A stretch of 28,236 nt of DNA from a virus. The position numbers were made by a program, and so were the translations under genes. The notes below the pieces were generated by a model. It saw only the letters and a list, made by a program, of their open reading frames with translations, searched no databases and was not told the DNA's origin. Location of the stretch: IMG/VR virus record IMGVR_UViG_3300022693_000624, positions 1 to 28,236 of that record; one strand, 5' to 3'. Below, piece by piece: positions 1,416 through 23,002 of this stretch (position 1 is its first letter; each line of letters opens with the position of its first letter).

Positions 1416-1436
1416 TCATATTAAGCAATTAATCAA
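1408..1436 (-). promoter_or_regulatory. Sigma-70-like promoter for the leftward HTH/lysis operon
   Basis: On the minus strand TTGATT (1436-1431), a 17-nt spacer, then TAATAT (1413-1408). Predicted start is near 1401, leaving a leader of about 20 nt with GGAGGTG. Its -10 overlaps that of the rightward promoter, so the two cannot be occupied together. Confidence 0.55.
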
Positions 1437-1448
1437 TCGGGGATTAAG

Positions 1449-1535: not shown

Positions 1536-1675
1536 CAATGTCTCAGTACTTACAGCTTAAGCGCAAGATGCTCAAGGATTACGTCTATTACCGGCGCCGT
1601 GGGATAAACCCAATTCCCATGGGCAAAATACTCAGAACGCTTAAGGCGCAGAAGAGGCTAGTTACCAATGCTTAA
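1532..1675 (+). CDS. 47-residue basic hypothetical protein
   Basis: A 47-residue product, MTMSQYLQLKRKML..., with a strong AGGAGGT ribosome site (within 1518-1525) 7 nt before the ATG. It is rich in Lys, Arg and Tyr (YVYYRRRG), which suggests nucleic-acid or membrane-surface contact, and it lacks cysteines. It overlaps the preceding gene by 4 nt and the following one by 8 nt. No family recognised. Confidence 0.6.
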   Translation: MTMSQYLQLKRKMLKDYVYYRRRGINPIPMGKILRTLKAQKRLVTNA

Positions 1676-1850
1676 CGTAATCAACATGGCCGACGCCGTA
1701 CAAGATCTATATGTGATTGGGCCGATTGATGAATCAGACGCACACAAACGATTAGTAGCAAAACGACTAGGGGCAGATCATGATTATATCACTAGAATTC
1801 TCAAGGGGACGATTGGACGGGAAGAAATCGAGACCAGTTTCAAGCGGTAG
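1668..1850 (+). CDS. 60-residue hypothetical protein, possible HTH
   Basis: Starts at ATG 1668 with GAAGAGG about 10 nt upstream, overlapping the preceding gene by 8 nt. An internal ATG at 1686 lacks a ribosome site. Residues about 30-47 (LVAKRLGADHDYITRILKG) resemble the turn and recognition helix of an Xre-type helix-turn-helix. The whole protein is small for a repressor. A regulatory role in the early operon is a weak inference; 'hypothetical' is the safe label. Confidence 0.55.
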   Translation: MLNVINMADAVQDLYVIGPIDESDAHKRLVAKRLGADHDYITRILKGTIGREEIETSFKR

Positions 1851-1891
1851 GACTAACGATTATTATATAGGTTATAAGGAGGGTGCAGAAT

Positions 1892-2680
1892 ATGCCAGAG
1901 ATACAAGACCAATCAAGAAACATTTACCAGCGCGTTAATGCGGTGATGCAGGAAATTAAATATATCCAGAAAGACGCCAAAGTCCAAGGGTATCTAGCAG
2001 TTACCCACGACAAGGTTACGTCTGTGCTTCGCCAGCCGCTTGTGGATAACGGAATAGTGGTGGTTATACAGCAAGAGAAAGGCGAGATACTAGAGCGAAG
2101 AGACAAGGCTAATGGCGTTAACATGCTCTTGTACTCTGGCGCTTACGTTATTAATTTCGTAAACATAGATGACCCAAAGGACTCTATACCCGTTCGCATC
2201 GAAGCGCACGCGGCTGACAATGGCGACAAGGCCCCCGGCAAGGCTGCAAGCTACGCGACCAAACACGCAATGCTTAAGCTGTTTAGCTTGGAGACTGGCG
2301 AGAACGACGAGAGCAGAGAGGCTGAGCCATTGCTACATAGCGATATACAGCAAGCGAATTTTGAGGATTTACTCTCAAGGCAAGACGGCCTAGGCATGAC
2401 TATATTCTCGCAGACTGTAGGTCATGACGTTATGTCATCACTCACAAATACATTCAAAAAAGGTGAGATATCGTCAAGCAAGGCCCTACTTAGAGAGCTA
2501 ATAAACAGCGGCTTTGATGACATTATCAGGACGGCTACTCAGATATCTGATTTGATAGCAAGTGATGATCCCGCCGTAACTGAGCTTACAGATGAGCTTG
2601 AAGGTATGGAAAAGAGACTCGTTGCTAAGCAGTTAAGCAAAAGCGATATTGAGCACTTAAAAAAACTAAAACAGGATTAA
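1892..2680 (+). CDS. erf: ERF family single-strand annealing recombinase
   Basis: 262 residues from ATG 1892. The strong site AAGGAGGG (1876-1883) is 8 nt before this ATG and overlaps the in-frame GTG at 1883, so the GTG cannot be the start. The N-terminal half carries ERF superfamily (PF04404) features: an early helix (YQRVNAVMQEIKYIQKDAK), the YLAVTHDKVTSVLRQPLVDN segment, and GKAASYATKHAMLKLFSLETGE near residues 116-137, where ERF proteins have their conserved G/S-A-x-TYA-x-K region. The C-terminal half is charged and helical. ERF proteins anneal complementary single strands during recombination and circularisation of phage DNA, as in P22. The SSB-like gene follows after 3 nt. Confidence 0.9.
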   Translation: MPEIQDQSRNIYQRVNAVMQEIKYIQKDAKVQGYLAVTHDKVTSVLRQPLVDNGIVVVIQQEKGEILERRDKANGVNMLLYSGAYVINFVNIDDPKDSIPVRIEAHAADNGDKAPGKAASYATKHAMLKLFSLETGENDESREAEPLLHSDIQQANFEDLLSRQDGLGMTIFSQTVGHDVMSSLTNTFKKGEISSSKALLRELINSGFDDIIRTATQISDLIASDDPAVTELTDELEGMEKRLVAKQLSKSDIEHLKKLKQD

Positions 2681-2683
2681 ATA

Positions 2684-3028
2684 ATGAAGATAGGCGTAAG
2701 TTTGAATTTAGATGTAATGAAGATAGACAAGGCAAGACTGGTTGCCGGGAGTAAAGGCACGTACTTAGATGCCACCGTGTTTATAGAGATCGATATAAAA
2801 GACCAGTACGGCAACAGCGGCATGATCACTCAGAACGTAAGCAAGGATGAAAAAAACAACGGCATCAAAGGAAACATCCTCGGAAACTGTAAGGTGTTCT
2901 GGTCTGACACGCAAAGAAATGAAGCTCATGCTCAAGGTCATGCGCAGGTTGCTCAAACCGTAGCCCCTCAAGCTCAGCAGCCACCGCCCCCAGCAATAGA
3001 TAATTTTGACGATGACATCCCGTTTTAA
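2684..3028 (+). CDS. Single-stranded DNA-binding protein with SSB-type acidic tail
   Basis: 114 residues. Residues 1-80 are predicted beta-rich, consistent with a small OB-like fold (repeated hydrophobic strands such as YLDATVFIEIDIKD). Residues about 83-103 are a Gln/Pro/Ala linker, and the end, DNFDDDIPF, is the classic SSB C-terminal tip that docks partner proteins. It starts 3 nt after the erf stop, so the two are co-translated; SSB and annealase partnering is common in phages. It lacks obvious sequence similarity to E. coli SSB in the N-terminal domain, so the call rests on tail, size and context. Confidence 0.8.
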   Translation: MKIGVSLNLDVMKIDKARLVAGSKGTYLDATVFIEIDIKDQYGNSGMITQNVSKDEKNNGIKGNILGNCKVFWSDTQRNEAHAQGHAQVAQTVAPQAQQPPPPAIDNFDDDIPF

Positions 3029-3036
3029 CTTAACAG

Positions 3037-3490
3037 CCATACCCAAAGGACAGAAATGAAAACTTTAATTATTTTAACTGTAGCACTTACCATTCTTGTA
3101 ACTGGCTGCGAGCGTGATGCGCAAACGGCCTCTCGCAACCTCTCAAAGGCTGGCGATATGTTCGAGATACAAAGGCGCATTGTTTTTTACAACGGCATAA
3201 ATGGTGAGTACATGCTGACTGTTGAGGGTAGGTGCTCAATCAAGGATAGCAATCGACAACTTGAGGTTACATGTAAGACCGGGCCTAAAGCTTTCAAGAA
3301 GCACTTCTTGGGGCTATCTGACAATGTCACATATTTTGCTGAGCAATTAGGCGCAATAAAGGTCAGTACGTACCATAGCCGCATTATCTGGAAGCCTCAA
3401 AGCATCATCCCGAATATTGATGTAAACGCCTCGTCTTCTGATTTTGTTGAGACTATGACCAAGTAAACATCCATAACCATACCCAAGGAC
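3037..3490 (+). repeat. Short direct repeats flanking the lipoprotein gene
   Basis: CCATACCCAAAGGAC (3037-3051) lies just before the lipoprotein gene and CCATACCCAAGGAC (3477-3490) just after it, differing by one A. The repeats include the ribosome-site core AAGGAC. The unit bounded by the repeats is about 440 bp and contains exactly one gene. Confidence 0.6.
3056..3466 (+). CDS. Phage lipoprotein (beta-sandwich type)
   Basis: 136 residues with a signal peptide (MKTLIILTVALTILVTGC) and lipobox LVTGC, Cys18 being the lipidation site. The mature part has a predicted short helix, then beta strands (RRIVFYNGINGEYMLTVEG, residues about 41-59) and conserved-looking cysteines at 61 and 73. It resembles proteins annotated in enterobacterial phages as 'beta-sandwich lipoprotein', for which an outer-membrane, superinfection-related role has been suggested by analogy with other phage lipoproteins; I cannot confirm that. 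The ribosome site is AAAGGAC. The gene is flanked on both sides by nearly identical 14-15 bp sequences, so it may be a removable accessory gene. Confidence 0.75.
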   Translation: MKTLIILTVALTILVTGCERDAQTASRNLSKAGDMFEIQRRIVFYNGINGEYMLTVEGRCSIKDSNRQLEVTCKTGPKAFKKHFLGLSDNVTYFAEQLGAIKVSTYHSRIIWKPQSIIPNIDVNASSSDFVETMTK

Positions 3491-3509
3491 GGGTAGAGGA
3501 GAGTGAATA

Positions 3510-3593
3510 ATGTTTGAAACAATAGCGGTATGTGCATTTACGGGCGCGGTATTTTTAGTGATGGGCGTATTGATGAGTAGACGCGATGTCTAA
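3510..3593 (+). CDS. 27-residue single-pass membrane peptide
   Basis: MFETIAVCAFTGAVFLVMGV followed by LMSRRDV: one hydrophobic segment (residues about 5-22) with a positively charged C-terminus, which predicts the C-terminus in the cytoplasm. The upstream AGAGGAGAGTG gives a good ribosome site, and the stop overlaps the YbcO-like gene by 8 nt. No function recognised. Size and topology fit small phage membrane effectors, but this is inference. Confidence 0.55.
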   Translation: MFETIAVCAFTGAVFLVMGVLMSRRDV

Positions 3594-3879
3594 ACTAACT
3601 AAAGCAGCGAGGGGGCAAGAATGCACAGTACAGCTATATCCATATTGCAACGGAAACACAGAAACGGTAGTACTTGCTCATGCGCCTTGTGAGGATAAGG
3701 GAATGGGTTTTAAATCCCCTGATTGGTGGGGCGCTGATTGCTGTAGCGCTTGCCACGATATTATTGACGCGCGCACCCGTGTGGCTGATATTCCCAATAG
3801 TGAAATATATAGACGTGTTATATGTGGCGTATACCGAACGCTTAAAAGGCGCATAGAGCAGGGTGTAATTAAAATATGA
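3586..3879 (+). CDS. YbcO-like (DUF1364) nuclease-domain protein
   Basis: 97 residues beginning MSKLTKAARGQECTVQLYPY, the characteristic opening of the lambda YbcO/DUF1364 family (PF07102). Likely metal ligands are Cys13, Cys21, His32, Cys35 and the CCSACHD motif at 52-58. The family has a zinc-stabilised HNH-like fold and is found in the nin-type recombination regions of lambdoid and P22-like phages, where it is thought to act as a nuclease. Here it is followed by a RusA-like resolvase, matching that context. It is coupled to the following gene by an ATGA overlap. Confidence 0.85.
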   Translation: MSKLTKAARGQECTVQLYPYCNGNTETVVLAHAPCEDKGMGFKSPDWWGADCCSACHDIIDARTRVADIPNSEIYRRVICGVYRTLKRRIEQGVIKI

Positions 3880-4148
3880 TTGTTATCGAACTACCTTTTC
3901 CGCTGCCAACGTGGAATAGATTACTTGGAATGAACTGCTGGGAGAGAAAGAAATTAATAGACTTAACACACCGCATGACCTTGTTGTGCACTCAGTACGA
4001 AAAAGACTCGCAGACATTGACGGTATCTCCGCAAAGGCAGTTATTGATGGACTCATACATGCCGGGCTACTTGTTGATGATTCGGCCGCGTTCATCAAAA
4101 GCATCAGGTTCACCCAAGAAAAGGGCAAGGTCGAGAAGACGACGCTGA
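3876..4148 (+). CDS. RusA-like resolvase, N-terminal half (frame A)
   Basis: The 90-codon frame starts at ATG 3876, overlapping the YbcO-like stop as ATGA. Residues 1-37 (MIVIELPFPLPTWNRLLGMN, then WERKKLIDLTHRM) look like a RusA N-terminus: a first beta strand, Pro-rich turn, Asn, and basic helix. From about residue 40 the frame becomes low-quality and ends in a run of Arg, which is what the antisense-like overlap with the real C-terminal frame would give. The conserved RusA aspartates are missing here and found in the -1 frame from 3986. Either a -1 frameshift joins them, or the gene is broken, or these are two separate genes. Confidence 0.6.
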   Translation: MIVIELPFPLPTWNRLLGMNCWERKKLIDLTHRMTLLCTQYEKDSQTLTVSPQRQLLMDSYMPGYLLMIRPRSSKASGSPKKRARSRRRR

Positions 4149-4649: not shown

Positions 4650-5246
4650 ATGAAGTATTTATTGGTATTAATTTTAGTGACTCTAATTAGTTGCGGTAAA
4701 AGCTCAACGACAAATCAGAATGTTGCGACTGTAGCTCCTGTAGAGCCAAGCAAGACGTATTTAATCACCGGGCAATCCAACGCTTTACGCTGTGATTGGT
4801 CGTACTTTACACACACTTACGGTCATGATGTTTATATGATTGCAGAAGGCGGCGCACCGATTAAGCGACTAATCAATAACTACAATGGATTGAGCGGGGA
4901 ATTTGCAGGGATATTCTTTATTCACGGTGAGTCTGATGCGGGCAATAAAAAAGATCCGAATGTTTACGTCAGCCAGAGTATAAATTACTTCAGCAAAATC
5001 TATAGTGATATAGGCACGGTCCCGGTCTACATATCAACAGTTGGCTATCACAAAAAAGCACAGCCGGAACATTACGACGCGCTAAGAATTGCAATGAATG
5101 AAGAAGCAGAAATAAATGATCTATGGACGATAGCTTTCGACGATGCTCAATCATTCCCTGATCGAGACATGCTGACCGATAACGTCCACTTCACCCCCGA
5201 AGGTTGCAGGGAAATGATGGACAACTTCGCGGTTAGTATTCGTTAA
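4650..5246 (+). CDS. Lipoprotein SGNH hydrolase, sialate O-acetylesterase-like
   Basis: 198 residues. Signal peptide with lipobox LISC (Cys15) followed by a Ser/Thr/Pro linker to about residue 35. The catalytic domain shows TYLITGQSNA (GQSN at 41-44, Ser43 the likely nucleophile), FIHGESDAG (92-98, the GES-D/oxyanion block) and DNVHFTPEG (Asp177 and His180, the final DxxH block). These are the SGNH/SASA (PF03629) blocks in order. Members remove acetyl groups from sugars. Lipidation would anchor it in the host envelope rather than in the virion. Its 3' end overlaps the tailspike 3' end by 14 nt on the opposite strand. Substrate is inferred to be a surface polysaccharide. Confidence 0.85.
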   Translation: MKYLLVLILVTLISCGKSSTTNQNVATVAPVEPSKTYLITGQSNALRCDWSYFTHTYGHDVYMIAEGGAPIKRLINNYNGLSGEFAGIFFIHGESDAGNKKDPNVYVSQSINYFSKIYSDIGTVPVYISTVGYHKKAQPEHYDALRIAMNEEAEINDLWTIAFDDAQSFPDRDMLTDNVHFTPEGCREMMDNFAVSIR

Positions 5247-12626: not shown

Positions 12627-14032
12627 TAGCTAGCCTCGATATTTAAAAATGCGAATGACATCCTAGACCTAGACGCACCCCGGAATCTATAAGCTATAAA
12701 GCGGCGGACATAACCAAGGCCACGAATATAAAAACGCTGGTCATAATCAAGATTCTCAGCGTATAGCTCGACTTCCTCATTTGACCATACCTTGCCATCT
12801 ACCGTTTGACTTAAGAATAAAGTAGCGTCCTCGTCAGGGGCAACACCGGGAATAGTCTCAAGCTCAAGAACGTCAACGCTTCTGGTCTCCATGTTCACCA
12901 GCGGTGTGAATAATAACCACTCTGCAATATCGCCATAATGAGTAGCGACTGAAGGGTCAAGAAATCCAATGTTTCCACCTCGCTTATCTCCTCCGATCCA
13001 TTTTGACGTATCCGATGACCGCACAAAGTTCTTACCTCTGTAAATCTTGGTACCACTAACATCTGATCGTAATATAGTCCAAGCGACATTAGTACCTAGA
13101 GCATCGCCAATGTTTTGGTTATACAGCAACACTTGATTAGGAAGATGAATGATCACGTAATTAATGGCGTCGACAATGATTGAGTCCATCGTTACCGATC
13201 TAAGTCCGCCGTCTGATGTTTCATCAAGGATTTTATCGACTTCTCTAGAGCTAATGCGCTTAGACCCACCGCCTTGCACTATGTAAATGCCAGGGCTTGA
13301 TTCTTCTCTGCGACCGACCACAAACCAAGTAGCTGACTTCTCGGTTTTGCAGTGGGTACCAAGGATGCCGAGCTTTAACGCTTTAAGACTTATACGAGCA
13401 TACTGAAAGTTTTGCTTTCCTTGGTTTGTGTAGTATTCAGTGGTGTTCTCACCAAACGCTATTAGTTCGTTGTCTTCATTGATTCCGAGGCCGTAAGTAA
13501 CATCAGGCCTGAATTCAGCAGTAGCGAAATCTAAAACTAAGTACTCTTCTTCGTTGGTAATATCTGAGTGGTATATGATCTCGCCATCGGTAAGTATAAA
13601 GACGCCATCAGCCCAAACTATATCTATAGGGCTTCCAATTTCAGGGTCAACAATCTGTCTAAATCCATCGTCCGGGTTGTAGTAGTAAAGATTACCATCA
13701 GCAACGATAGCGATATTATTGAAGGAGAATGCTATTCGAATTTGCTCAGAACCGGGAACGACACCAAGAACCGTAGTCGATCCATTTGAGTTAACTTTAA
13801 TAAATGAATTGCCACTTACTCGATAGTGGCCTTGAAAATCAGACCTAGATACCCACCTTGCGCCACGATCAACACCCTCGCCATCAGCAAATAAAGATAG
13901 ACCAAACCATTGGTACATGTAGCCCTGAGCACCCTTGATAGGGTGGTTTATGGCGGTCATATTGACGGGTAGGGCGTCACGATAATCGACGTTATCGTCT
14001 ACTGCATCCCCTTTGATTAGTGGTATTTGCAT
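12626..14032 (-). CDS. Packaged-DNA stabilisation protein, P22 gp10-like
   Basis: 468 residues, close to P22 gp10 (472). Matching segments run in order: NVDYRDALPVNM near residue 14, GDAVD start region, GILGTHCKTEKSATWFVVGR (about 221-240, compare gp10 GIAGTYCKT), YVIIHLPNQVLLYNQN, and LLFTPLVNMETRSVDVLELE near 380-400, ending in a strand-rich C-terminus with RRFIAYRFRG. gp10 forms the tail hub between gp4 and the needle and closes the portal after packaging. The upstream gap of 41 nt to the gp4-like gene holds an AGG-type ribosome site. Confidence 0.9.
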   Translation of the reverse strand: MQIPLIKGDAVDDNVDYRDALPVNMTAINHPIKGAQGYMYQWFGLSLFADGEGVDRGARWVSRSDFQGHYRVSGNSFIKVNSNGSTTVLGVVPGSEQIRIAFSFNNIAIVADGNLYYYNPDDGFRQIVDPEIGSPIDIVWADGVFILTDGEIIYHSDITNEEEYLVLDFATAEFRPDVTYGLGINEDNELIAFGENTTEYYTNQGKQNFQYARISLKALKLGILGTHCKTEKSATWFVVGRREESSPGIYIVQGGGSKRISSREVDKILDETSDGGLRSVTMDSIIVDAINYVIIHLPNQVLLYNQNIGDALGTNVAWTILRSDVSGTKIYRGKNFVRSSDTSKWIGGDKRGGNIGFLDPSVATHYGDIAEWLLFTPLVNMETRSVDVLELETIPGVAPDEDATLFLSQTVDGKVWSNEEVELYAENLDYDQRFYIRGLGYVRRFIAYRFRGASRSRMSFAFLNIEAS

Positions 14033-14073
14033 CTAGTAAGCCTATGTTTGAGCAATTATAACACCCTGCCAGA

Positions 14074-14805
14074 TTAGTTGATAAGTGTCGCGCCAACAGC
14101 TGAGAAGTTAATTGTAAACAACTGCGTTCGTCCAATGCTGGTGTTAACCGTGAATTGCACTTGCTGAAAATTCTGCGCATTAATGTTTGCTTCAGCGCGG
14201 TATGAAAATATAGGGCTGGCGAAGTCATCGATCAATAATGTAAGGCCTGTAGTTACTGATGTGGTGCGGCTTGTGACTGTCTCGCCATCTTGTAAATAGT
14301 CAACAATAGAGAATGTGTAGTCGTTAATAGATCCGCGCGTGATCGTCTCGGTATCGCATGAGATAGGAGCATTGGGTGCGTCTTTGTAATAGCGAATCCA
14401 GTTTGGCCCGCGGAAGTTGTTGCCGCTGCCTCTGGCTTGTCTGCGAGGATGTCCAATAGGATTAGTTACGGATGCTCTAGCCGACCAATTAGACATACTT
14501 TGATTAGCTTGCATGCGCTGATCTGTCGTGACAACTTTGCCAAAATCTGGAGCCATTCTTACGCCCAAATTAATAGATGCGGCCCAAAAAAAAGGATTAT
14601 CGATTCCGCTTTCTGTCGCAGGGTCTGGCACATCTTCAAAGTTGAAAGAGGTGCATATATTCCGTGAGTCCAGCTCATAGGCCATGCTCTCCAAAACATC
14701 TAGAGCGTTTTCAACTTCATTAGGCTGAGGCTTGCGGGTCAACCCGCTGATTCTAAGCCATGAATAGGCCTTGTTAACAATGTCGCCCTTGGTCTTAGTC
14801 GGCAT
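14074..14805 (-). CDS. P22 gp4-like tail accessory protein with extra C-terminal domain
   Basis: 243 residues versus 166 in P22. The N-terminal part starts TKTKGDIVNKAYSWL and continues with NALDVLESMAYELDSR and GVRMAPDFG, matching gp4 (TKGDLV..., the LE-M helix, and RIAPDY). Residues about 120-150 contain the RRQARGSGNNF segment equivalent to gp4's C-terminal loop. From about 153 to 240 an additional all-beta domain is present with DYLQDGETVTS, TTGLTLLIDD and TVNTSIGRTQLFTINF, resembling small phage 'fiber-tail adaptor' proteins. It would bridge portal and gp10-like hub. Start ATG overlaps the upstream stop as TAATG. Confidence 0.88.
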   Translation of the reverse strand: MPTKTKGDIVNKAYSWLRISGLTRKPQPNEVENALDVLESMAYELDSRNICTSFNFEDVPDPATESGIDNPFFWAASINLGVRMAPDFGKVVTTDQRMQANQSMSNWSARASVTNPIGHPRRQARGSGNNFRGPNWIRYYKDAPNAPISCDTETITRGSINDYTFSIVDYLQDGETVTSRTTSVTTGLTLLIDDFASPIFSYRAEANINAQNFQQVQFTVNTSIGRTQLFTINFSAVGATLIN

Positions 14806-15017
14806 TATTTATCCCCTGATTTGACCGCTTTCTTAGCTGGAACTTTGATCGTCTTCTTAATTTCCTCAAGCACTAAATCAGCTTGCAGGGAGCTATCACC
14901 TTTGGATTCAACTGGCTTAACCTTGGGAGATGCTGAATAACCATGTCTAAGCATATGCTCTACAAACTCAGCTTTGACGCGCTCTTCTTGTCCGTCTTTA
15001 TATAAAATACAGCTCAT
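14805..15017 (-). CDS. 70-residue small protein downstream of coat
   Basis: Starts at ATG 15017 with GAGGT 7 nt upstream (an in-frame GTG at 15020 is less likely). It opens MSCILYKDGQEERVKAEFVE with a short strand and helix, then a linker and a Lys-rich tail (KKTIKVPAKKAVKSGDK). Similar short proteins with a 'LYKDG' opening occur next to head genes of many podoviruses and siphoviruses; role unknown. A stable hairpin separates it from the coat gene. Confidence 0.7.
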   Translation of the reverse strand: MSCILYKDGQEERVKAEFVEHMLRHGYSASPKVKPVESKGDSSLQADLVLEEIKKTIKVPAKKAVKSGDK

Positions 15018-15037
15018 CACTAAAACCTCAAATGAGT

Positions 15038-15055
15038 GGAGGCCCGAAGGCCCCC
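15038..15055 (-). terminator. UUCG hairpin after the coat gene
   Basis: In the minus-strand transcript: GGGGGCC-UUCG-GGCCUCC, a 7-bp stem (one G-U pair) capped by the very stable C(UUCG)G loop, starting 6 nt after the coat stop. No run of U follows, so it is more likely an attenuator or 3'-end mRNA stabiliser for the coat message than a full terminator. Confidence 0.65.
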
Positions 15056-15060
15056 GTAGA

Positions 15061-16341
15061 TTAGATTGTTACAGCAACACCTGCACGAGACGGGTCTTTC
15101 ATGGTTAAACCATACCATGTAAACAACCTATATCGCAGCGTTAAACCGGCCAATTCTGCATCGTAAATCATATACATATTAAGACCGTTGCTCATGGTTT
15201 CAGAGATAACTTTCATCCCGTCAAACTGTCCCATAAGCTCCATTGGTACATCACCACCAAGTACCTCGATAGCGTCAACATCCCAAAACAGGTTAGTCTT
15301 ATTAGTTGCTTGAGTATTGATACGCTCTATTGTTGCGCCACTAGTGATAGTAGTGTCAACGTTAGCATACGCCAGCTCAGTCACACTCAACGCACCGTCG
15401 TCAGCCGCAATAGGCTTGGGGAAGAACGTTAAAGAGGTTCCCGTAGGTTTGGCAACAACGGTAAACGTCATATCCTGACCTGTTGCGCTTTTATCAGCTA
15501 GGCCGAGAGACTGAATAGGCGTGCCGCCATTATCGATAGTGAACTTATCACCAATATCGTAGCCTGCCGATGCTGTTACCGCGATAGTTGCTACACGATA
15601 ATCAACGTTGGTCACGATGCTTGTGGATGGATCAACAGAACCGCCCTCAGGTGCAAACGAGGCCGAAGCTGTTGTAGTCGTGCTTACTGCTGCACCACCA
15701 GTTAGGACGGGATTAAACGAACCTACGAAAAGATCGAACTCAGCAACATTTGAACCGATTTGGCCAGTCTTCCACGTATCAGCAGGTTGGCCTTTAAGGG
15801 TTTGTCGTGAAGCCAAGTCCTGGCCAAACGTTTGATTATCCCGGTCATTCAGAACGAAACATCTACGAGTGTGATTGCCTTGACGCTCATTCATAAGAGC
15901 CTGAGCTTCCGAGATAAAGTCAAACCCGCTAGTAACATTTGACTCATAGTAAAGCGAGCCTGAGTTTTTAATAAGCTCAGCAATTCGCTTGTTCAGCTCC
16001 GTTGCTTGCTGCTTACCTGCCTGCTTGCCTCGACGCTCCCAGAATGTAGAATCTCTAAGGTTATCAATTCGTTGCTGTACGAAATCATTCGTTGGAGCGC
16101 CCAATACTGCCGGGTAGGTCTCCTCGATAATTTCCTGCTCTTGGCCTGTTAAGCTAAAGCCGTCCAATATTGGTGCGTGTTGTTGAACAGGTCGCCAAAT
16201 AACATTATTGGCGTTCTGCATGGTGCCAGGATCTGGCGTGAAAACATCAGTCTTATCGACTAACATCATTTGGTCTTCGTAAGTATCTAGAGCGTTCTCA
16301 AATAGAACCTCGGCGATCTTACCCGATGCTAAAGTGGTCAT
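15061..16341 (-). CDS. Major coat protein, P22 gp5-like
   Basis: 426 residues against 430 for P22 coat. Matching landmarks: NNVIWRPVQQHAPILDGF (about 44-61), NDFVQQRIDNLRDSTFWERR (about 84-103), the NERQGNHTRRCFVLND stretch, the inserted I-domain with VDYRVATIAVTASAGYDIGD and KFTIDNGG (about 246-272), FFPKPIAADDGALSVTELAY (compare P22 ITPKPVALDD), and TNLFWDVDAIEVLG. It has the HK97 fold with an insertion domain by homology, and assembles with the scaffold upstream. Ribosome site AAAGG precedes the ATG. Confidence 0.93.
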   Translation of the reverse strand: MTTLASGKIAEVLFENALDTYEDQMMLVDKTDVFTPDPGTMQNANNVIWRPVQQHAPILDGFSLTGQEQEIIEETYPAVLGAPTNDFVQQRIDNLRDSTFWERRGKQAGKQQATELNKRIAELIKNSGSLYYESNVTSGFDFISEAQALMNERQGNHTRRCFVLNDRDNQTFGQDLASRQTLKGQPADTWKTGQIGSNVAEFDLFVGSFNPVLTGGAAVSTTTTASASFAPEGGSVDPSTSIVTNVDYRVATIAVTASAGYDIGDKFTIDNGGTPIQSLGLADKSATGQDMTFTVVAKPTGTSLTFFPKPIAADDGALSVTELAYANVDTTITSGATIERINTQATNKTNLFWDVDAIEVLGGDVPMELMGQFDGMKVISETMSNGLNMYMIYDAELAGLTLRYRLFTWYGLTMKDPSRAGVAVTI

Positions 16342-16358
16342 AATATATTACCTTTAAA

Positions 16359-17384
16359 TTACCATTGACTAGTGTCAACACCCTTATGCTTAGCGGCTCG
16401 CTTGATACTTATGCGGGCCTGAACATCATTACCGGCTTTCTGATATTGCTTGTGGAATGTCCCAGATGGGCCACCACTTGCGCCTTCTCCGTCTGCCTTA
16501 GATGCTGGCTTGGGTGTTGTGCTTTTTCTTTTATTCGGAGAGGTTATGCTTGACTGTAGTGAGCCCAAAAATGCCGCTGCTGATAATCCACTTGGATCAC
16601 TTTGCATTAAGGCTTTAAGTCTACCAAGCTTTGCAGGGTTAACCCCCAGCTGGAACATCACCTTGTCGCTATCCTCTCCAGTTTGACTAAGTGTATTAAT
16701 AAGGCTGTCTGTGACTGAATCGCCTTGGCCGGGGAATATAGTGTCCATGGTTTGCCGTACTAAACTATCAGCTCCCAAGTACGCCTCTTCTGTGACCTTG
16801 CCGGATTCGACCAGCTTGTTCGCCCTATCGTAATGACCGTCTATAGCTAGCTTTAATGCAGACTGAGTTTTGTTCGCTTGGTCTTGCTGCTGAGTATTCT
16901 GGCTATGAGTCGCAAATCTTGCATCGATCTTCTTGTCATTCCAGTCATCAACTGCTACGTCATATGCTTCGTCGTCGAAGTCAAAGTCTTCCCGTTTTGG
17001 TCGGGCTGATACTTGACTTGGCGTTGCTACATTTCCGCTTGCCTCTAGCGCTTCAATCCTAGCCTTTAAAGCCTCGTTTTCATCCTTCACTACTCCAAGC
17101 TTGGCTTTTAGTTTGCGCCTTACTGAAGCTACTGCATGGTTAGGGACAAATCCGCCTTTCTGGTCATCTTCCGAGTTCTCTGCTTCCTCGGTTTGCATCC
17201 AAGCTTCTGGTGTTTCTTCTTCGGTAGGCTCTGTTACTACTTCGGCCTGCTCCGCTTCGGGCTCACTTGCTGCTTCGTCATTAGTAGGCTCTACTTCGGG
17301 ATTGATAACCTTTTCAACCACCTTGCCTTCCTCAACTACGTCAGCGTTTTCTGCTTTCAGCTCTTTCAGAGATAAACTTTCCAC
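16359..17384 (-). CDS. Scaffolding protein, P22 gp8-like
   Basis: 341 residues starting at GTG 17384 with GAGGA 9 nt upstream. The N-terminal third is extremely acidic (EEAENSEDD, runs of Glu/Thr/Pro), the middle is a helical coiled coil, and the C-terminus is basic with RISIKRAAKHKGVD, matching the scaffold helix-loop-helix that contacts coat. P22 gp8 is 303 residues. It catalyses procapsid assembly and exits before maturation. It sits between portal and coat in the conserved order, but is separated from the portal gene by the reversed cassette. Confidence 0.88.
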   Translation of the reverse strand: MESLSLKELKAENADVVEEGKVVEKVINPEVEPTNDEAASEPEAEQAEVVTEPTEEETPEAWMQTEEAENSEDDQKGGFVPNHAVASVRRKLKAKLGVVKDENEALKARIEALEASGNVATPSQVSARPKREDFDFDDEAYDVAVDDWNDKKIDARFATHSQNTQQQDQANKTQSALKLAIDGHYDRANKLVESGKVTEEAYLGADSLVRQTMDTIFPGQGDSVTDSLINTLSQTGEDSDKVMFQLGVNPAKLGRLKALMQSDPSGLSAAAFLGSLQSSITSPNKRKSTTPKPASKADGEGASGGPSGTFHKQYQKAGNDVQARISIKRAAKHKGVDTSQW

Positions 17385-17478
17385 TTAATATTCCTCGTCG
17401 TGTCAACGATAATCCGCATGTACCCATACGTAGGTGCGCTCTATTTTCCCGTAAAGCATCGGTAATGTGATTTTACTA

Positions 17479-17507
17479 TTGATAAGAATTAAAAGCAGTG
17501 TTAGAGT
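17479..17507 (+). promoter_or_regulatory. Sigma-70-like promoter of the reversed cassette
   Basis: TTGATA (17479-17484), 17-nt spacer, TAGAGT (17502-17507): 5/6 and 4/6 matches. It lies 40 nt before the first cassette gene at 17548, reads rightward into it and lies outside any coding region (the 163-bp gap 17385-17547). Confidence 0.6.
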
Positions 17508-17547
17508 CCCTTTTGCAGTCACCAGAATCACCAGAGGAGTTAGAGTA

Positions 17548-17880
17548 ATGTGTACCTATACAGCAAAAGACTTTAGACAAAAACACACTGCCAAGGCATA
17601 CCTTGAGGCCGCCACAGGCCATACGGTTATTATTAACAACGATAGATATAAGGGGTTAGTGTTTGAGCTGACCGCAAGACCTAGAGACCCATTGAAGGGC
17701 TCTGTAACAGTGTGCGGGGACGTGGTTGTTGATAATGATGGAATATATCACCAAGGGGAGCTGAAGGAGGGTGAGCTAACGCCGCTTTATAGTTTTGGCG
17801 ATTCCACAATCGAGACGGTTGGCGAAACGGCATTCGAAAGAGGTGAGGATTCAACTAACGGGGAAGAAGGCAATGATTAA
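17548..17880 (+). CDS. Reversed cassette gene 1, hypothetical (110 residues)
   Basis: Starts at ATG 17548, chosen because AGAGGAG lies 9 nt upstream; the frame is open to 17467 but without a ribosome site. Product begins MCTYTAKDFRQKHTAKAYLE, has strands around GHTVIINNDRYKGLVFELTA and GSVTVCGDVVVDNDG, and ends acidic. It would be a small soluble alpha/beta protein. No family recognised. Overlaps the next gene by 8 nt. Confidence 0.65.
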   Translation: MCTYTAKDFRQKHTAKAYLEAATGHTVIINNDRYKGLVFELTARPRDPLKGSVTVCGDVVVDNDGIYHQGELKEGELTPLYSFGDSTIETVGETAFERGEDSTNGEEGND

Positions 17881-18274
17881 TCTAGACGAGCTGGAAATAG
17901 TAAAGCAAATAATTGGAGACCTAAGCGGTGTAGGTATATGGGCAATGTTGGGCTTTATCGCCTACAAGCTGCTAAAGATCATATTCACATTCTGGGCTGC
18001 TATATGGCTTGTGAATAAGGTTGTAACAAAGTGGTTCGAATACATTAAGTCACCGCTCAATAAGAAAGAGTGCGAGGCCCTTGTAGATAAAGAGACGGCA
18101 CTATTGAAAAGACTTGATGCTTCTGAATACACACTATCAAGCGCTAAGAACGTGCACACACAGGAAATGGAAGCCCTCAAGATAACCATGCGTAATGTTA
18201 GACAAGAGGCGCAAATTAAGGTGGATCTATACAAGCACAAGTATGAAGTTATGACTGGTGAAAAGGATGCATGA
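17873..18274 (+). CDS. Reversed cassette gene 2, membrane plus coiled-coil protein (133 residues)
   Basis: Start ATG 17873 with GGGGAAGAAGG upstream; a longer frame to 17795 would lie inside gene 1. Residues about 19-48 are hydrophobic with two possible membrane passes (GVGIWAMLGFIAYKLLKIIF, then TFWAAIWLVNKVV). The rest, about 60-133, is a charged helix with ALVDKETALLKRLDASEY. The topology resembles holin-like or phage membrane effectors, but it is far from the lysis genes. Confidence 0.65.
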   Translation: MINLDELEIVKQIIGDLSGVGIWAMLGFIAYKLLKIIFTFWAAIWLVNKVVTKWFEYIKSPLNKKECEALVDKETALLKRLDASEYTLSSAKNVHTQEMEALKITMRNVRQEAQIKVDLYKHKYEVMTGEKDA

Positions 18275-18536
18275 CGGGCTTTTCGGAATTGGGCAGTTCT
18301 TACAGGGCGCGGCAGGCCCAGCAGGGAATGCCTTTAGGCGGGAACAAATGGCCGCAACTTATTGCGGACAGGATCAGGCAGCAGCTCTAGGAGCCGAGCA
18401 AGCAATGAGGGCGGGATCAGCAGGGCCAATGTTTGCCCAAGCTCCCCCAGAATCAAAGCTAGACATTCACTACAGAATGTCTACTCCAGCCTCGCTAGAT
18501 AACGACTATAAGGAGTGGAAAGACGATGCCAGTTAA
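18267..18536 (+). CDS. Reversed cassette gene 3, Gly/Ala-rich hypothetical (89 residues)
   Basis: Start ATG 18267 (GTG 18258 is an alternative); it overlaps gene 2 by 8 nt. The product MHDGLFGIGQFLQGAAGPAG... is rich in Gly, Ala, Gln and Met up to about residue 60, then ends with a conserved-looking YRMSTPASLDNDYKEWKDD. Low complexity; no family recognised. Followed by an 11-nt overlap into gene 4. Confidence 0.5.
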   Translation: MHDGLFGIGQFLQGAAGPAGNAFRREQMAATYCGQDQAAALGAEQAMRAGSAGPMFAQAPPESKLDIHYRMSTPASLDNDYKEWKDDAS

Positions 18537-18720
18537 AACAAGCAGGATACTATTAGGCGATATCAATGGCGAGGCTGTCTATGCTATCGGCCCATACGCT
18601 CAGAGAATAAGCGATATAGTTATGTCTCAGGCTAAGGAGATTAGAGAGCTTAAGGAGAAAGTCGTACTAAAGATGGCAAAAGATTTCGATAATGTATTTG
18701 ATGGTGAATATAGTGAATAA
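18526..18720 (+). CDS. Reversed cassette gene 4, hypothetical (64 residues)
   Basis: ATG 18526 with AAGGAG 10 nt upstream. Product starts MPVKTSRILLGDINGEAVYA, then a helix (SQAKEIRELKEKVVLKMAKD) and an acidic end. It looks like a small dimerising coiled-coil protein. Function unknown. Confidence 0.6.
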   Translation: MPVKTSRILLGDINGEAVYAIGPYAQRISDIVMSQAKEIRELKEKVVLKMAKDFDNVFDGEYSE

Positions 18721-18883
18721 ACACGAAAGAACGCTATGGATTTTAAAGCTAGAGAGCGAACACATAAAGCAAAAGAATGAGGGCAAAATGAGGAATGAGG
18801 CCTACAGGCGCACTGAGCGTAGAATTGTAGAAGCGGCGCAAATGGCCTGCCTTATACAGAGAGTGATGGTGCCAATACTATGA
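18713..18883 (+). CDS. Reversed cassette gene 5, basic helical hypothetical
   Basis: Probably starts at GTG 18713 (GGTGA 7 nt upstream; ATG 18701 or 18692 are alternatives) and ends 18883. Product begins VNKHERTLWILKLESEHIKQ and is a mostly charged helix with RRTERRIVEAAQ and a hydrophobic end. Overlaps neighbours by 8 and 4 nt. The positive charge could suit nucleic-acid binding or an inhibitor role; neither is shown. Confidence 0.5.
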   Translation: MNKHERTLWILKLESEHIKQKNEGKMRNEAYRRTERRIVEAAQMACLIQRVMVPIL

Positions 18884-19095
18884 TTGAATATAGAGTTATA
18901 TCAAACGATTGCCCGAGGAGCCTTGACCATTCCGTGAACGAAGCCATCAAGGATGGGTGGCGACCTATTGGAGGAGTCTCTACAGCTGTACGGAAGGCCG
19001 GGTGGCAGCAATACTGCAAGATGTACCAAGCTATGACAAGGGACTGCGACGCTGTAGAGTTGACGTTCATGGATATCGATAATGATGATAAGTAA
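18880..19095 (+). CDS. Reversed cassette gene 6, DUF1737-like protein
   Basis: 71 residues: IEYRVISNDCPRSLDHSVNE, AIKDGWRPIGGVSTA, then YCKMYQAMTRD. This matches the DUF1737 (PF08410) layout of 'Y.vv....p..Le..Vne.l.eGW.p.GGvs......yyQAM...'. These small proteins are widespread in phages and bacteria without known function. ATGA overlap with gene 5. Confidence 0.75.
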   Translation: MIEYRVISNDCPRSLDHSVNEAIKDGWRPIGGVSTAVRKAGWQQYCKMYQAMTRDCDAVELTFMDIDNDDK

Positions 19096-19255
19096 GCCCC
19101 ACATACAGTGGCACCAACCTTCAAAAAGATGGGCCTGCACGTCCTCAACCATTAATGTAGGCGGAAAGACTCCGATAGAAGCGTACAACTCATGGCGATA
19201 TCATCGCCGTCGTCGGGCAGAAAAAAACTACCTACTAACCCACAGCACCTCGTAA
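19082..19255 (+). CDS. Reversed cassette gene 7, short Trp-rich protein (57 residues)
   Basis: ATG 19082, overlapping gene 6 by 14 nt (second Met at 19085). Contains QWHQPSKRWACTSS and GKTPIEAYNSWRYHRRRR, the pattern of small phage proteins with a short beta hairpin holding a Trp/Cys and a 'TP..AY..W' helix. Its 3' end overlaps the portal 3' end by 21 nt on the other strand. Function unknown. Confidence 0.55.
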   Translation: MMISKPHIQWHQPSKRWACTSSTINVGGKTPIEAYNSWRYHRRRRAEKNYLLTHSTS

Positions 19256-21307
19256 TTTCAGGGTGTTGTCTATCTGCTTGCCAACCGTACTAACTTGAGT
19301 ATCTCTAATCTTAACGCCAGCTTCAGCCGCTTGAATTTGTACTTTCTGGCGGCCTGTTTCGGCTTCAAATTCATCCACTGCAATCTTATTGGCATCGTTA
19401 ACTTTGTCTTGTAGTGCTGCCTCGCCTTCCATCATTCTAGCCTGACCTTCCAGCATTAGAGGATCTTGCTGATTATCCTTCTCTTGTGCGGCTTGATCCA
19501 TCATGGCTTTTTCTTCATCAGTCTCAGGTGGTTTAACACCAGCTAAGATTAATTGCTTGCGGCCGTAATCTCTAAGATCCTTGAATAGCGAACCGTCTAC
19601 CAATGTAAGGTAAGTGTTCATTAACATGGTGTACTCAGGTGATCCGGGCATAGAACCATTAATCAGCTCCTTCAATTCCTCTTTGTTCTGCTCTTTGACT
19701 GACTCGAAGCTTGGGCCGATATCTGCGTAAACATCAAACGTCATAGATGTAACATCGTTGATAGTGCGAGTATTCATCGTGTCATAGTTCATTTCAGAGC
19801 TATTGATCATTTCTTTAGTGCGTGTTCCGTCAACCTTAACTAGCGCTACCTCTTGCTCTGAGTCATACACGTCACGAGCCATTGAGGCGTATACCTCACC
19901 ATCTCGACGTACTGCATGCTTGTGATTGTCTTGGTAAGTATAGCTCTGCATGTCTAAGCGTTTTTGCATAGACTGAATGGCTTTACCGCTCAAATCTGTG
20001 TCTGTGATATCGGCAGGTAAGCCAGCACCGGCAACGTCATCTACAGCGGCTCTAGTTTCCTGCATGCTCATCATTAGAGCTGGTGGAACTTCGGGTGCCT
20101 TGATGTATCCTACCGGGCCAACAGGCAAAGGATTTCCGTTAGCATCGTTAGCATTTTGTAGAGTGTAGGGCAGATTGTTATCAGAACCCGCAATCTCATA
20201 CATGTCCTCAAAGCCTTGGATCTGCTCAGCTGTAAAGATGGGCTTTTCTCTTGGGCTCATTGATACAATGTCAGCAAGGTAGGACATTTGGAAGTTACGT
20301 AAACGCTGTGGATCTTTAGCTAAGCGAATGATTCCTTCGTAATGCTCCTCGCCTTCAATGTGTGCCCGCTCTCCATACTGTGGAATAACAGGAATATGCT
20401 CACCGGGGATAATAGATTCTTCTAGAATCTCATCACCAGACGCAATATATTTTGTTACAACATAACGCTTAACCGTTCGCTCATTTGTTAGCTCGTAGGA
20501 GCCTTCCGCCATCTCGTCTTCATGATCGTCCATGTCTAATTCAGAGATAGTTTTTGATGCGCCAAACATGTCGGTAAATGTGTAGTACTTAATGTCCCGC
20601 TTTACGCGATGGTAAAAGCGAGTGACATAGATCTTGTTTGATTCAGATATCCAGGGGAATACATAGCTAATTTCAGGCGATTTGAATGAGTCGCCAGCGT
20701 TGCCAGACTTGATATCGTCCATATCACGGCCGGTTAGCTCGTGAACTAGATCTTTGTAGCCATCCTCAGAGTAACTTACCAAACAGCTTACATAGTTAGC
20801 ATCTGATTTATCTTTAAGCTTAGCGTTAGGGTCCCACATAACATTGTTGTTAGCTTCGAACAAAGGATAGCGTCGAATAACTTGACGATCATCACCAGCT
20901 CGATTGGTCTTGTACTCTGCTCGCAGCTCCCATGCACCCACACCACACACGACAGTTTCTTGACTAGCGTTCTGCTTGGCCTCTTGCGCTGTGTTGTTGC
21001 GCATATCAGAGCGATACATGCCGTCGATTAAATCAGCAGCACTGTCATTAGTGTCATCAATAGGATCGAAATCAACTTGTACAGGGTTTAGGACTAGATC
21101 TGTGAGTATTTGGCGTGTGGCTTTGCGGCATATATTAAACTCACCTCGAAAGCCTATATCTGACTCTTGTAGGTATGTGTCGTCCCACTGAGAAATGTAA
21201 GCAAACAACATATCATCGGCGGCTTTTAATCTCGTATCGTACCCACTCTGATAGGCCTTATCGTGCAGTTTTTTTAGATCTTCTAACGTAAGCTTTTCGT
21301 ACTGCAT
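19235..21307 (-). CDS. Portal protein, P22 gp1-like
   Basis: 690 residues (P22 portal 725). Early segment LRNFQMSYLADIVSMSPREK and TAEQIQGFEDMY near 345-370, with RNNTAQEAKQNASQETVVCG (about 97-116) and AGLPADITDTDLSGKAIQSM near 430-450, are typical of P22-type portals. The C-terminal 100 residues are a Gln/Glu/Ala-rich helix (MLEGQARMMEGEAALQDKV), matching the barrel region. It forms the dodecameric DNA channel at the capsid vertex, nucleates assembly and senses headful. Starts immediately after the large terminase stop. Confidence 0.93.
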   Translation of the reverse strand: MQYEKLTLEDLKKLHDKAYQSGYDTRLKAADDMLFAYISQWDDTYLQESDIGFRGEFNICRKATRQILTDLVLNPVQVDFDPIDDTNDSAADLIDGMYRSDMRNNTAQEAKQNASQETVVCGVGAWELRAEYKTNRAGDDRQVIRRYPLFEANNNVMWDPNAKLKDKSDANYVSCLVSYSEDGYKDLVHELTGRDMDDIKSGNAGDSFKSPEISYVFPWISESNKIYVTRFYHRVKRDIKYYTFTDMFGASKTISELDMDDHEDEMAEGSYELTNERTVKRYVVTKYIASGDEILEESIIPGEHIPVIPQYGERAHIEGEEHYEGIIRLAKDPQRLRNFQMSYLADIVSMSPREKPIFTAEQIQGFEDMYEIAGSDNNLPYTLQNANDANGNPLPVGPVGYIKAPEVPPALMMSMQETRAAVDDVAGAGLPADITDTDLSGKAIQSMQKRLDMQSYTYQDNHKHAVRRDGEVYASMARDVYDSEQEVALVKVDGTRTKEMINSSEMNYDTMNTRTINDVTSMTFDVYADIGPSFESVKEQNKEELKELINGSMPGSPEYTMLMNTYLTLVDGSLFKDLRDYGRKQLILAGVKPPETDEEKAMMDQAAQEKDNQQDPLMLEGQARMMEGEAALQDKVNDANKIAVDEFEAETGRQKVQIQAAEAGVKIRDTQVSTVGKQIDNTLKLRGAVG

Positions 21308-23002
21308 TTAGCGCCTCTGCATTATCTTTCGTGGTCTTGGCCGATGGGTCTTATCTATCACGTTATTATTTATTATACCAGCGTAATCAAAACTAAGCAC
21401 GACGGCATCAAATAGGTTGGGAGAGGGTATAGAGATACGATTGCCGTCTGGCATTAGCACACCTTTTCGCAGCTCCTCTTTAGTGTAGAAATTGACTGTT
21501 GAGCCCGGTTTAATGGGTGTCTTACATGCTTCTGCTTTCAGCTTCTCCATCATTTCAGGCTTGATTGAAGCTGAGTCAAAGCTTATCAATGTGTCGTGGT
21601 CTTGATATCGCTTAGTGGGGTCTGTTACTGCTTCATGTGTTCTGTAGATTCTCTCGGCTAAGCCTATGATGTTCTGAGCCTTTTTATTCCTAAGCGCGTC
21701 CTTGTTCTTAAGGTTATCGGTTTGTCTGTCTAGGTTAGCTGTGACGCTCTTGAATTGGGCTTCTGGATGGTGGACTTCAGTCGAGCCCTTATATGCCACG
21801 ATCTTAACTTTCTTGCCACTAAAAGCAGTAGCCACATTATCTCTAAGTGTTGCGCCCAATCCATCAGCATCGTATATAAACGTATCGCAGCCGCCTAGAA
21901 TGGCCCTCTTACAGGCTTCATCCATTTTGCGGTTACCGTTCTCGCCTTCTATCTCATCAATGTCATAAAAGACCACGCCTTTTCTAGCAGCATAGCCGAA
22001 TGGATCTTTGCCCACATCAGAAGGATCACCGCCAACAGTAATAGCGCCTTTAGCCTCGAACCCTAATACCTTATGAGCGTCTATGCAGGACTTGAACCAA
22101 TCTTCATGTATGACAGAAGATGAAATATCATCGTTAAACTTGCCAAGCCATATACCGTCAAATCTTGATTGACTCATGATTCCCTTATCCACTTTGATTT
22201 GATCCTTTTCGACCTCATTAGTTAGTGATTCATCATGCTTGAACCAAGGATTATCCTCGTATGTCAGCTTAACAATTAAGTGGTACTTGTCCTCATAGAT
22301 ACCGTACTTGTCTAATTCGGCTTGATAAGGTGATATAAATTCATGACTCATGGCATCTTGCGAGCTGCCAGTGTTCCATAAATACCAAAGGGTAGCGCCG
22401 GGCATATCTCTCAATGTTGGGCCAAGCGTATCAATAGTCTTCTGCTTGGCGTCTTCAGCTTCCTCCATTAAGAAATGCTTAAAGTCTGAGGTTCCCTTCA
22501 TATCCAAAATATTTTTCATCCCACCGAATACGAACTTACCCCGGTTACCATTCCTAATCTCCCATTTAGACGGCACTGACAGAAATCCGCCCAGCTCCAT
22601 CTTGGCTATCGTTGACTCTATGCCTGAAAATACAGACTCCTTTAACGAGGTCATTCGCTCCCTAAGTACATACACCTTGCTACCATGCGAATGAACATTG
22701 GCAGCTAGTACATTCTGAGCAAATCTAGTCTTTGTCCCACCTCGGCCACCAAACAAGCATTTGTACTTCTTGTTCTTGAGAATGAAAGGCTCAAGCTTTT
22801 CTATTAACAATACGGTAGGCTCATCATCTGTAGGCACCATGCTTCCAATGTCACCCTTCCACGCCCGGATAACATTAGATACTAGCTTGCCATCGATATT
22901 ATCAACCCTATCTATAATTCCATACACAGAAGGCTCTAAGTTTCCAGATGCAGCTTGTGCTAAAGGCTCTATAGCATCTAATCGTCTAGCGAGGTTAAGC
23001 AT
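21308..23002 (-). CDS. Terminase large subunit
   Basis: 564 residues. An N-terminal extension of about 60 residues precedes the motor. Walker A GGRGGTKT at 85-92, Walker B around FLMEEAED (177-184), coupling motif near LWNTGS (208-213). The RNase H-like nuclease has VGGDPSDVGKD (Asp326), FIYDADGLGA (Asp378/380) and FDAVVLSFDYAG near the C-terminus. It powers packaging and cuts headful-length DNA from a concatemer. Overlaps terS by 8 nt. Longer than P22 gp2 (499) because of the N-terminal segment. Confidence 0.95.
   Translation of the reverse strand: MLNLARRLDAIEPLAQAASGNLEPSVYGIIDRVDNIDGKLVSNVIRAWKGDIGSMVPTDDEPTVLLIEKLEPFILKNKKYKCLFGGRGGTKTRFAQNVLAANVHSHGSKVYVLRERMTSLKESVFSGIESTIAKMELGGFLSVPSKWEIRNGNRGKFVFGGMKNILDMKGTSDFKHFLMEEAEDAKQKTIDTLGPTLRDMPGATLWYLWNTGSSQDAMSHEFISPYQAELDKYGIYEDKYHLIVKLTYEDNPWFKHDESLTNEVEKDQIKVDKGIMSQSRFDGIWLGKFNDDISSSVIHEDWFKSCIDAHKVLGFEAKGAITVGGDPSDVGKDPFGYAARKGVVFYDIDEIEGENGNRKMDEACKRAILGGCDTFIYDADGLGATLRDNVATAFSGKKVKIVAYKGSTEVHHPEAQFKSVTANLDRQTDNLKNKDALRNKKAQNIIGLAERIYRTHEAVTDPTKRYQDHDTLISFDSASIKPEMMEKLKAEACKTPIKPGSTVNFYTKEELRKGVLMPDGNRISIPSPNLFDAVVLSFDYAGIINNNVIDKTHRPRPRKIMQRR

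Follow-up and report, generated by a model that had tools for sequence, protein, structure and literature searches.

A variable gene cassette between the portal and scaffold genes of P22-like phages, with a recurrent gene predicted to encode a Phd/YefM-fold protein

We analyzed the IMG/VR virus record IMGVR_UViG_3300022693_000624, the whole of which (28,236 bases; possibly a fragment, as virus records may be) is referred to here as the window, and within it a cassette of small genes inserted among the late genes. The late genes lie on the minus strand: terL (21308–23002), portal (19235–21307), scaffold (16359–17384) and coat (15061–16341). The gap separating portal from scaffold carries, on its plus strand, seven short open reading frames that overlap in series (ORFs; 17548–19255) and run opposite to both flanking genes, as the first-pass annotation of this DNA had described. 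The cassette and its two boundaries comprise the following features, with lengths in amino acids (aa) and overlaps in nucleotides (nt):

19235–21307, minus strand: portal gene, one boundary of the slot (tblastn, 49% to the AH02 portal and 82% to the L003 portal)
16359–17384, minus strand: scaffold gene, the other boundary (tblastn, 33% to the AH02 scaffolding protein and 65% to that of L003)
17548–17880, plus strand: gene 1, 110 aa, with a predicted Phd/YefM-fold N-terminal domain (residues 1–45) and a low-confidence tail (structural model; homologues at the same junction; codon-usage z 4.2)
17873–18274, plus strand: gene 2, 133 aa, overlapping the stop codon of gene 1 (ATGATTAA; codon-usage z 4.3)
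18267–18536, plus strand: gene 3, 89 aa, no convincing family match (codon-usage z 3.6)
18526–18720, plus strand: gene 4, 64 aa, no family match (codon-usage z 4.4)
18713–18883, plus strand: ORF 5, 56 aa with GTG 18713 as start or 63 aa with ATG 18692, coding doubtful (codon-usage z 0.2)
18880–19095, plus strand: gene 6, 71 aa, DUF1737 (Pfam PF08410, E 1.8e-8, 34.5 bits, above the cut-off; codon-usage z 2.0)
19082–19255, plus strand: ORF 7, 57 aa, 21-nt overlap with the portal 3′ end, coding doubtful (codon-usage z −1.3; no convincing family match)

Codon usage was learned from the long genes of the phage and scored against shuffles, ORF 5 being scored as 18710–18883. It supports genes 1 to 4, is marginal for gene 6, and does not support ORFs 5 and 7. 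Five of the seven ORFs have independent support, genes 1–4 from codon usage and gene 6 from DUF1737, a family already named in the first-pass annotation; a chance-ORF reading is rejected for these five and may still apply to ORFs 5 and 7. The lengths given earlier hold for six of the ORFs, but ORF 5 has 56 or 63 residues rather than 57. Likewise, the 21-nt overlap with portal is correct in its coordinates, but as coding by ORF 7 is unsupported, this overlap may be an accident.

At least 162 related loci (numbered L003 and so on) were obtained, among the matches listed, from portal and coat searches of IMG/VR, some contigs being cut twice, and two phage records, AH02 and Vibrio phage 1.275.O, were added. 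With the window included, 115 sequences have both a portal and a scaffold match, and these reduce to 90 distinct junctions, among which there are a few near-copies of one phage (L006, L091, L102). The distance between portal and scaffold ranges from −17 to 3999 base pairs (bp). A homologue of gene 1, hereafter a Phd-like gene, is present in antisense to the late genes in 11 junctions and in sense in another 11; 21 have other inserts of more than 260 bp, and 47 are no longer than 260 bp, including those of AH02 (113 bp) and Vibrio phage 1.275.O (171 bp). The adjacency of portal, scaffold and coat that had been ascribed to P22-type phages therefore holds for 47 of the 90 junctions, but not for the 43 longer ones.

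The closest relative, L003, carries gene 1 only, in antisense and with its stop codon touching the portal stop codon, so ORFs 2–7 of the window are extra relative to L003 and lie between gene 1 and portal. Among near-identical phages, L057, L070 and L083 have junctions of 95–129 bp, L059, L073 and L078 have antisense Phd-like operons, and L061 and L146 have other genes in sense; the sequence that L059 and L073 share with the short junctions of L057 and L070 begins at the −35 of the scaffold promoter. On a tree of 85 portals, made by a quick method and with some long branches, the four junction states require 21 changes, against a shuffled mean of 39.0. The antisense state alone requires 10 changes, 3 of them forced by well-supported branches, and the sense state alone 3 changes, 2 of them forced. 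The check proposed with the first-pass annotation, whether the contents of the locus vary between related phages, thus gave strong variation between close relatives, which is well supported, as is the position of the slot, and its contents behave like accessory cargo. A reading in which all relatives hold the same genes under late control was rejected in view of this variation and of the promoter-like site that belongs to the block itself. Also found in the slot are an LPD23 protein (L061, E 2e-13), an HNH endonuclease (L059), a sub-threshold ART-PolyVal match (L069), an int-alpA RNA (L064, 8200–8263) and, at the L120 junction, a small protein that is lipoprotein-like by eye.

The gene 1 family is the only family found recurring widely in the slot, and it occurs there in both orientations. 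A Phd-like profile of ten sequences matched 41 ORFs in the loci at E ≤ 1.8e-7 (six contigs counted twice). All 28 of those in loci with a defined junction are inside the junction, the other 13 being in loci without both anchors. The loci searched with this profile had been fetched by portal and coat; less biased, and covering the antisense branch only, is a scan of IMG/VR for DNA encoding the motif I-[N/K]-H-D-R-Y-x-[D/N]-x-x-F, with one hydrophobic-type codon before F. This yielded 17 stretches, of which 16 have the gene and three are the known carriers L020, L101 and L149. Fourteen motif loci were cut anew and 13 carry the gene (L169 does not); in 12 of these 13, portal and/or scaffold is its neighbor on the opposite strand, the remaining one, L174, having terL alone, likewise opposite. 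Five of the 14 are contigs seen before, and eight of the nine new ones have the gene, seven of them beside portal and/or scaffold on the opposite strand. Judged by portal, scaffold or coat (E 2e-6 to 4e-57), L166, L167, L172 and L178 come from phages further removed, L166 nonetheless with a close terL (1.7e-206). Scanning a genome collection for the same motif gave three stretches, none carrying the gene, and gene 1 with two of its homologues, gene 2 and gene 6 had no relatives at E ≤ 0.1 among 50,697 phage records. Among 38 whole records, which may themselves be fragments, 17 have the gene, with the copies already described as best matches, while the other 21, AH02 and Vibrio phage 1.275.O among them, gave no match. 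Two of the 17 carrier records have an additional, weaker Phd-like ORF outside the junction (L185, 1916–2077, minus strand; L186, 1522–1761, plus strand).

Structural modeling of the gene 1 protein with AlphaFold2 (AF2; 38 sequences) predicts residues 1–45 as a strand–helix–helix–strand–strand succession with a local confidence score (pLDDT) of about 90, and the remainder with low confidence; the length and sequence of this tail vary among homologues. In a Foldseek search of the PDB with this model, ranks 1–29 are all Phd/YefM-type antitoxins or toxin–antitoxin complexes, with P1 Phd–operator complexes among the best structural matches (best E 0.12, none at or below 0.001; target TM score 0.39–0.77). 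VIA-align likewise placed such antitoxins in rows 1–21 (Z 5.1 to 2.7, the first unrelated row at 2.5), where a Z under 8 may mean only a common arrangement and is not decisive by itself. The sense-branch protein of L008 was modeled with a pLDDT of 94 and has the same antitoxins in its first 26 Foldseek rows (best E 0.027, again none at or below 0.001). Profiles made from antisense-only and from sense-only members match each other in hhalign (probability 94.8, E 5.4e-8), indicating that both branches are one family. We consider it well supported, as a structural prediction, that the gene 1 protein has the Phd/YefM DNA-binding fold.

At the level of family profiles, gene 1 of the window has no match to the Pfam family PF02604 (gathering score 29.8 bits). 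Nine of 30, 4 of 17 and 3 of 14 family members in three sets match PF02604 at E ≤ 1, with scores of 12.3 (L004), 14.2 (L008), 16.4 (L010), 15 (L166), 14.1 (L168) and 19.9 bits (L172). The best member is L172 (E 6.3e-4); wherever bits are shown they are below the gathering score, and one or a few members also match other Pfam families with comparable E-values. A sequence search of the PDB with the family profile gave four matches that look like chance, and a PADLOC match of gene 1 to BrxA at 0.022 was also judged chance, with no stretch passing on its own. A toxin–antitoxin module was considered and rejected. No toxin match was found among the cassette proteins of the window in Pfam, PADLOC and other family scans, and a homologue of gene 1 stands alone, with no toxin partner, in at least three phages (L003, L020 and L168); we therefore do not file the gene 1 product as the antitoxin of a toxin–antitoxin pair.

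Between scaffold and gene 1 the window holds candidate regulatory elements for both directions of transcription:

17479–17507, plus strand: candidate cassette promoter TTGATA-17-TAGAGT, its −10 preceded by TG (p 0.03 when the upstream region is shuffled)
17519–17545, plus strand: 9-bp direct repeats TCACCAGAA TCACCAGAG (with GAGTTAGAG as a weak third), operator candidate (z at lag 9 of 3.3–3.6 over the 36 nt preceding gene 1)
17470–17475, minus strand: scaffold-promoter −10 candidate TAAAAT (aligned with the −10 of relatives; L003 also has TAAAAT)
17385–17466, minus strand: leader of the scaffold mRNA with a predicted 5′ H-type pseudoknot (P1, 17462–17460/17451–17449; P2, 17458–17452/17443–17437)

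Over 15 homologous operons the promoter score is above that of shuffles (Stouffer 3.4). A period of 9 bp recurs before the antisense operons: in the 36 nt before 15 antisense Phd-like genes, lag 9 has a Stouffer score of 7.0 and is the best lag in 10 of the 15, with no other lag from 3 to 15 standing out. A second set of 15, taken before the first gene of each operon, gave 8.2; this set omitted the negative L173 and L175, the positive L166 and L149, which nearly duplicate L167 and L059, and L073. For all 20 operons the scores at lag 9 are 8.1, 7.8 and 7.2 over 36, 50 and 70 nt, with other lags from 4 to 15 staying within 2.3, and lag 9 is the best lag in 13, 12 and 9 of the 20, respectively. 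The repeat unit itself varies by phage, from TCACCAGAA/TCACCAGAG in the window to TCAGACGGA, present three times, in L168, CGAGACACG in L101, GGCAGGACA in L084 and TTAAGAGAG in L020. In the window, L020, L084 and L168 the repeats fall between the best-scoring −10 and the start codon, a site where an autorepressor could act. Perfect palindromes with arms of at least 7 are absent from the promoter region of the window, where these direct repeats are seen.

On the other side of the slot, 50 of 72 junctions have a sigma70-like site that matches at 8 or more of 12 positions and ends 58–90 nt before scaffold (14.1 expected from shuffles); for 9 or more of 12 the count is 36 of 72 (3.6 expected). This promoter is present with or without a cassette. 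In the window, the scaffold −10 candidate lies 3 bp behind the cassette −35 (17470–17484), giving divergent, overlapping promoters; the scaffold −35 is poor there and the automatic scan chose another site. The separate scaffold promoter and structured leader in most relatives make the slot a boundary between transcription units, which would explain its tolerance of inserts. The idea that late transcription runs antisense to the entire cassette is also weakened: with the scaffold promoter on the far side of the cassette in 50 of the 72 junctions, only read-through from terL–portal would be antisense, with the reservation that the scaffold promoter of the window is poor. We found no late-strand terminator in the portal–scaffold gap of the window, and no plus-strand terminator-like site after gene 7 within 14000–22000. 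An intrinsic terminator is present somewhere in the junction in 27 of 74 junctions, and the sense-branch cassettes of L007, L009, L010, L025 and L026 have intrinsic terminators starting 96–169 nt before scaffold.

We judge it just probable that these features belong to a moron-like accessory cassette at the boundary of two late units, autorepressed by its Phd-fold protein in an Aca-like (anti-CRISPR-associated) manner. The cassette would sit between the terL–portal and scaffold–coat units and be read backwards from its own sigma70-type promoter, the family of its first gene keeping its place while the remaining genes vary. The gene 1 protein would bind the 9-bp direct repeats just downstream of the cassette −10 and, after an initial burst, would silence the cassette in the way that Aca proteins silence anti-CRISPR (acr) loci. 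The small cargo genes behind gene 1 would be expendable and exchangeable, and most likely would act early on the host or its defenses. The first-pass annotation had read the cassette as an early host-takeover or anti-defense island, which agrees with its variable, accessory-like contents and its own promoter-like site but missed the Phd/YefM fold and the recurrence of gene 1.

The proposed cassette resembles several known systems in part. Extra transcription units in lambdoid phages are known as morons, with which it shares the insertion of an extra unit, with its own promoter-like site, between genes that are adjacent in relatives (the short junctions among the 90). In contrast to morons, the cassette is multi-gene and often antisense, no terminator was found after it in the window (the five sense-branch cassettes named above do end in one), and its slot is tied to one regulator family. 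With the Phd/YefM antitoxins, such as P1 Phd and E. coli YefM, gene 1 shares the predicted N-terminal fold, including the matches to the P1 Phd–operator complexes; it differs from them in its sub-gathering Pfam scores, in the architecture of the repeats, in its stand-alone copies and in that no linked toxin was found. At acr–aca loci the position of aca5 is constant while acr candidates shuffle (PMC7648647), and Aca proteins act as repressors at the promoters of their own operons by way of inverted repeats (PMC9410906). Common to both are a position-fixed small DNA-binding protein, shuffled small cargo and a host-type promoter; autorepression, known there, is here merely expected. Aca proteins have a helix-turn-helix domain, whereas gene 1 is predicted to be Phd/YefM-like; the regulator is often the first gene here and downstream of the cargo there, the operator candidate here is a 9-bp direct repeat, and no known Acr was identified here in scans that covered protein families and defense systems. 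Hotspots in P2 and P4 phages, which carry antiviral systems (PMC9122126), are likewise slots filled with different cargo within a phage family; those systems are anti-phage, whereas the cargo here has no convincing defense match.

Several observations weigh against such an autorepressed cassette. The sigma70-like promoter noted at first pass is present, but is weak evidence by itself, with 20 sites of that kind found in 8 kb against 13.4 expected, and singly only 4 of the 15 homologous operons reach p < 0.05 for a promoter. The 9-bp period was first noticed by eye, in many of the sequences later tested, and the repeat of the window itself is in the top 0.9% of window positions, no more. Of five operons added afterwards, L172, L109 and L073 have the period and L078 and L086 do not; a clear lag-9 signal is missing at 36 nt in L003, L078, L086, L120 and L133, and also in L173 and L175, where other same-strand ORFs precede the Phd-like gene so that it is not the first. 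Before Phd-like genes that are not first in their operon lag 9 is absent (Stouffer −0.9, n = 9), and in the sense branch it is weak (1.8, n = 14). Control regions upstream of 299 portal, coat, scaffold and terL genes scored 5.0 at lag 6 and 4.6 at lag 9, with a mean z at lag 9 of about 0.27; these non-flat lags presumably come from coding sequence. Aca operators are inverted and not direct repeats (PMC9410906), and P1 Phd binds inverted repeats according to the titles of 4zm0 and 4zm2. L003, L020 and L168 have the gene alone and so no cargo to repress. Finally, no cassette protein has a convincing defense or counter-defense match in Pfam or PADLOC, the latter covering defense systems and not anti-CRISPRs.

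It seems unlikely that the gene 1 protein, freed from any toxin, is a dedicated switch of the cargo slot that reads a 9-bp iteron rewritten between phages with its period fixed, and which would also time the shift from accessory to capsid genes, back-to-back with the scaffold–coat promoter. Also doubtful is that it acts in trans, as an orphan antitoxin against Doc/YoeB-type host toxins that would otherwise abort infection, its variable tail binding the toxin. The predicted fold, the copies without a partner in cis in L003, L020 and L168, and a tail that is of low confidence in the model and variable in length and sequence agree with this, but it leaves the tie to one junction and the preceding 9-bp array unexplained, and no member with bits shown reaches the PF02604 gathering score. 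We regard as improbable, too, that the protein mainly regulates the divergent scaffold–coat promoter as a late switch, with the cargo as passengers. RNA polymerase could hardly use both promoters of the window at once, given the 3-bp spacing of the cassette −35 and scaffold −10 candidates, and the gene persists alone beside the scaffold promoter in L003 and L020. A palindrome like TTGGTCAATTTGACCAA, a possible operator, lies upstream of scaffold near its promoter in 7 of 16 loci examined (15 of the sense branch and L142): exact in L011 and L152, with one mismatch in L008, three in L009, L025 and L026, and four in L095. The palindrome is missing from the other nine, however, the gene is missing from 68 of the 90 junctions, many with a good scaffold promoter, and the 9-bp repeats are on the cassette side. 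The occurrence of the gene alone keeps both the orphan antitoxin and the scaffold switch alive as rivals to the autorepressed cassette. Least credible is a merely permissive intergenic site for homing or selfish elements and random genes, with a Phd-like gene lacking a regulatory role, which would account for the HNH endonuclease, LPD23, ART-like and int-alpA occupants but not for the repeated presence there, in either orientation and beside divergent portals, of a single small family, of which only two of 17 carrier records have another, weak copy elsewhere.

Inspected by eye, the gene 2 protein shows a long charged stretch after a hydrophobic segment, and it has a sub-threshold match to DUF2730 (E 6.6e-4); gene 2 has no relative in IMG/VR, where gene 6 has two, one of them merely a 19-residue match. 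In another P22-like phage, L183, the junction of terL and portal contains a DUF1737 relative of gene 6 (5001–5186, 31% identity), placing gene 6-type cargo also at a second structural-gene junction. Literature searches, mostly outside subscription journals, gave no paper evidently describing this portal–scaffold slot. The Phd-like gene provides a searchable handle for a slot with almost wholly uncharacterized contents. If the Aca analogy is true, the genes behind it would be candidates for new counter-defense proteins, and the fixed junction would show at which site related phages should be examined. A Phd-fold protein would have an unusual target if these direct 9-bp repeats prove to be its operator.

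The leader of the scaffold–coat unit has a predicted structure of its own: in many phages it starts with the pseudoknot, about 72–79 nt ahead of the scaffold start codon. When 30 leaders were scored without alignment, the Stouffer value was 6.9, with 13 of the 30 at p < 0.05 and some choosing other helices; in a stricter pseudoknot scan of 73 junctions only 25 were at p < 0.1. In eight sense-branch leaders 95.1% of cells pair and 14 cells are changed on both sides, 11 of them in the pseudoknot stem; shuffles averaged 5.1, and none of 500 attained 14. Counted as pairs with a double-sided change, the total is 5, which 71 of 500 shuffles also reached, and these eight leaders were themselves the source of the structure. 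The second stem of this predicted pseudoknot changes by compensatory pairs from one phage to another. Rfam gave no leader match in the window (one unrelated match at E ≤ 1) and none at gathering in eight relatives, where the only hit was the int-alpA RNA elsewhere in L064. The palindrome TCGT..ACGA before scaffold was rejected as a target of gene 1, as it is also present in many phages without gene 1 and is a leader stem. The scaffold protein of P22 regulates its own synthesis. In T4, autoregulation of gene 32 acts by way of a pseudoknot located 67 nt ahead of the gene (PMC3014915), a position similar to that predicted here.

Elsewhere in the window, the other plus-strand block includes an Erf-like annealing protein (1883–2680) and a match to the PHROG annotation "recombination directionality factor" (3056–3466, E 5.8e-50).

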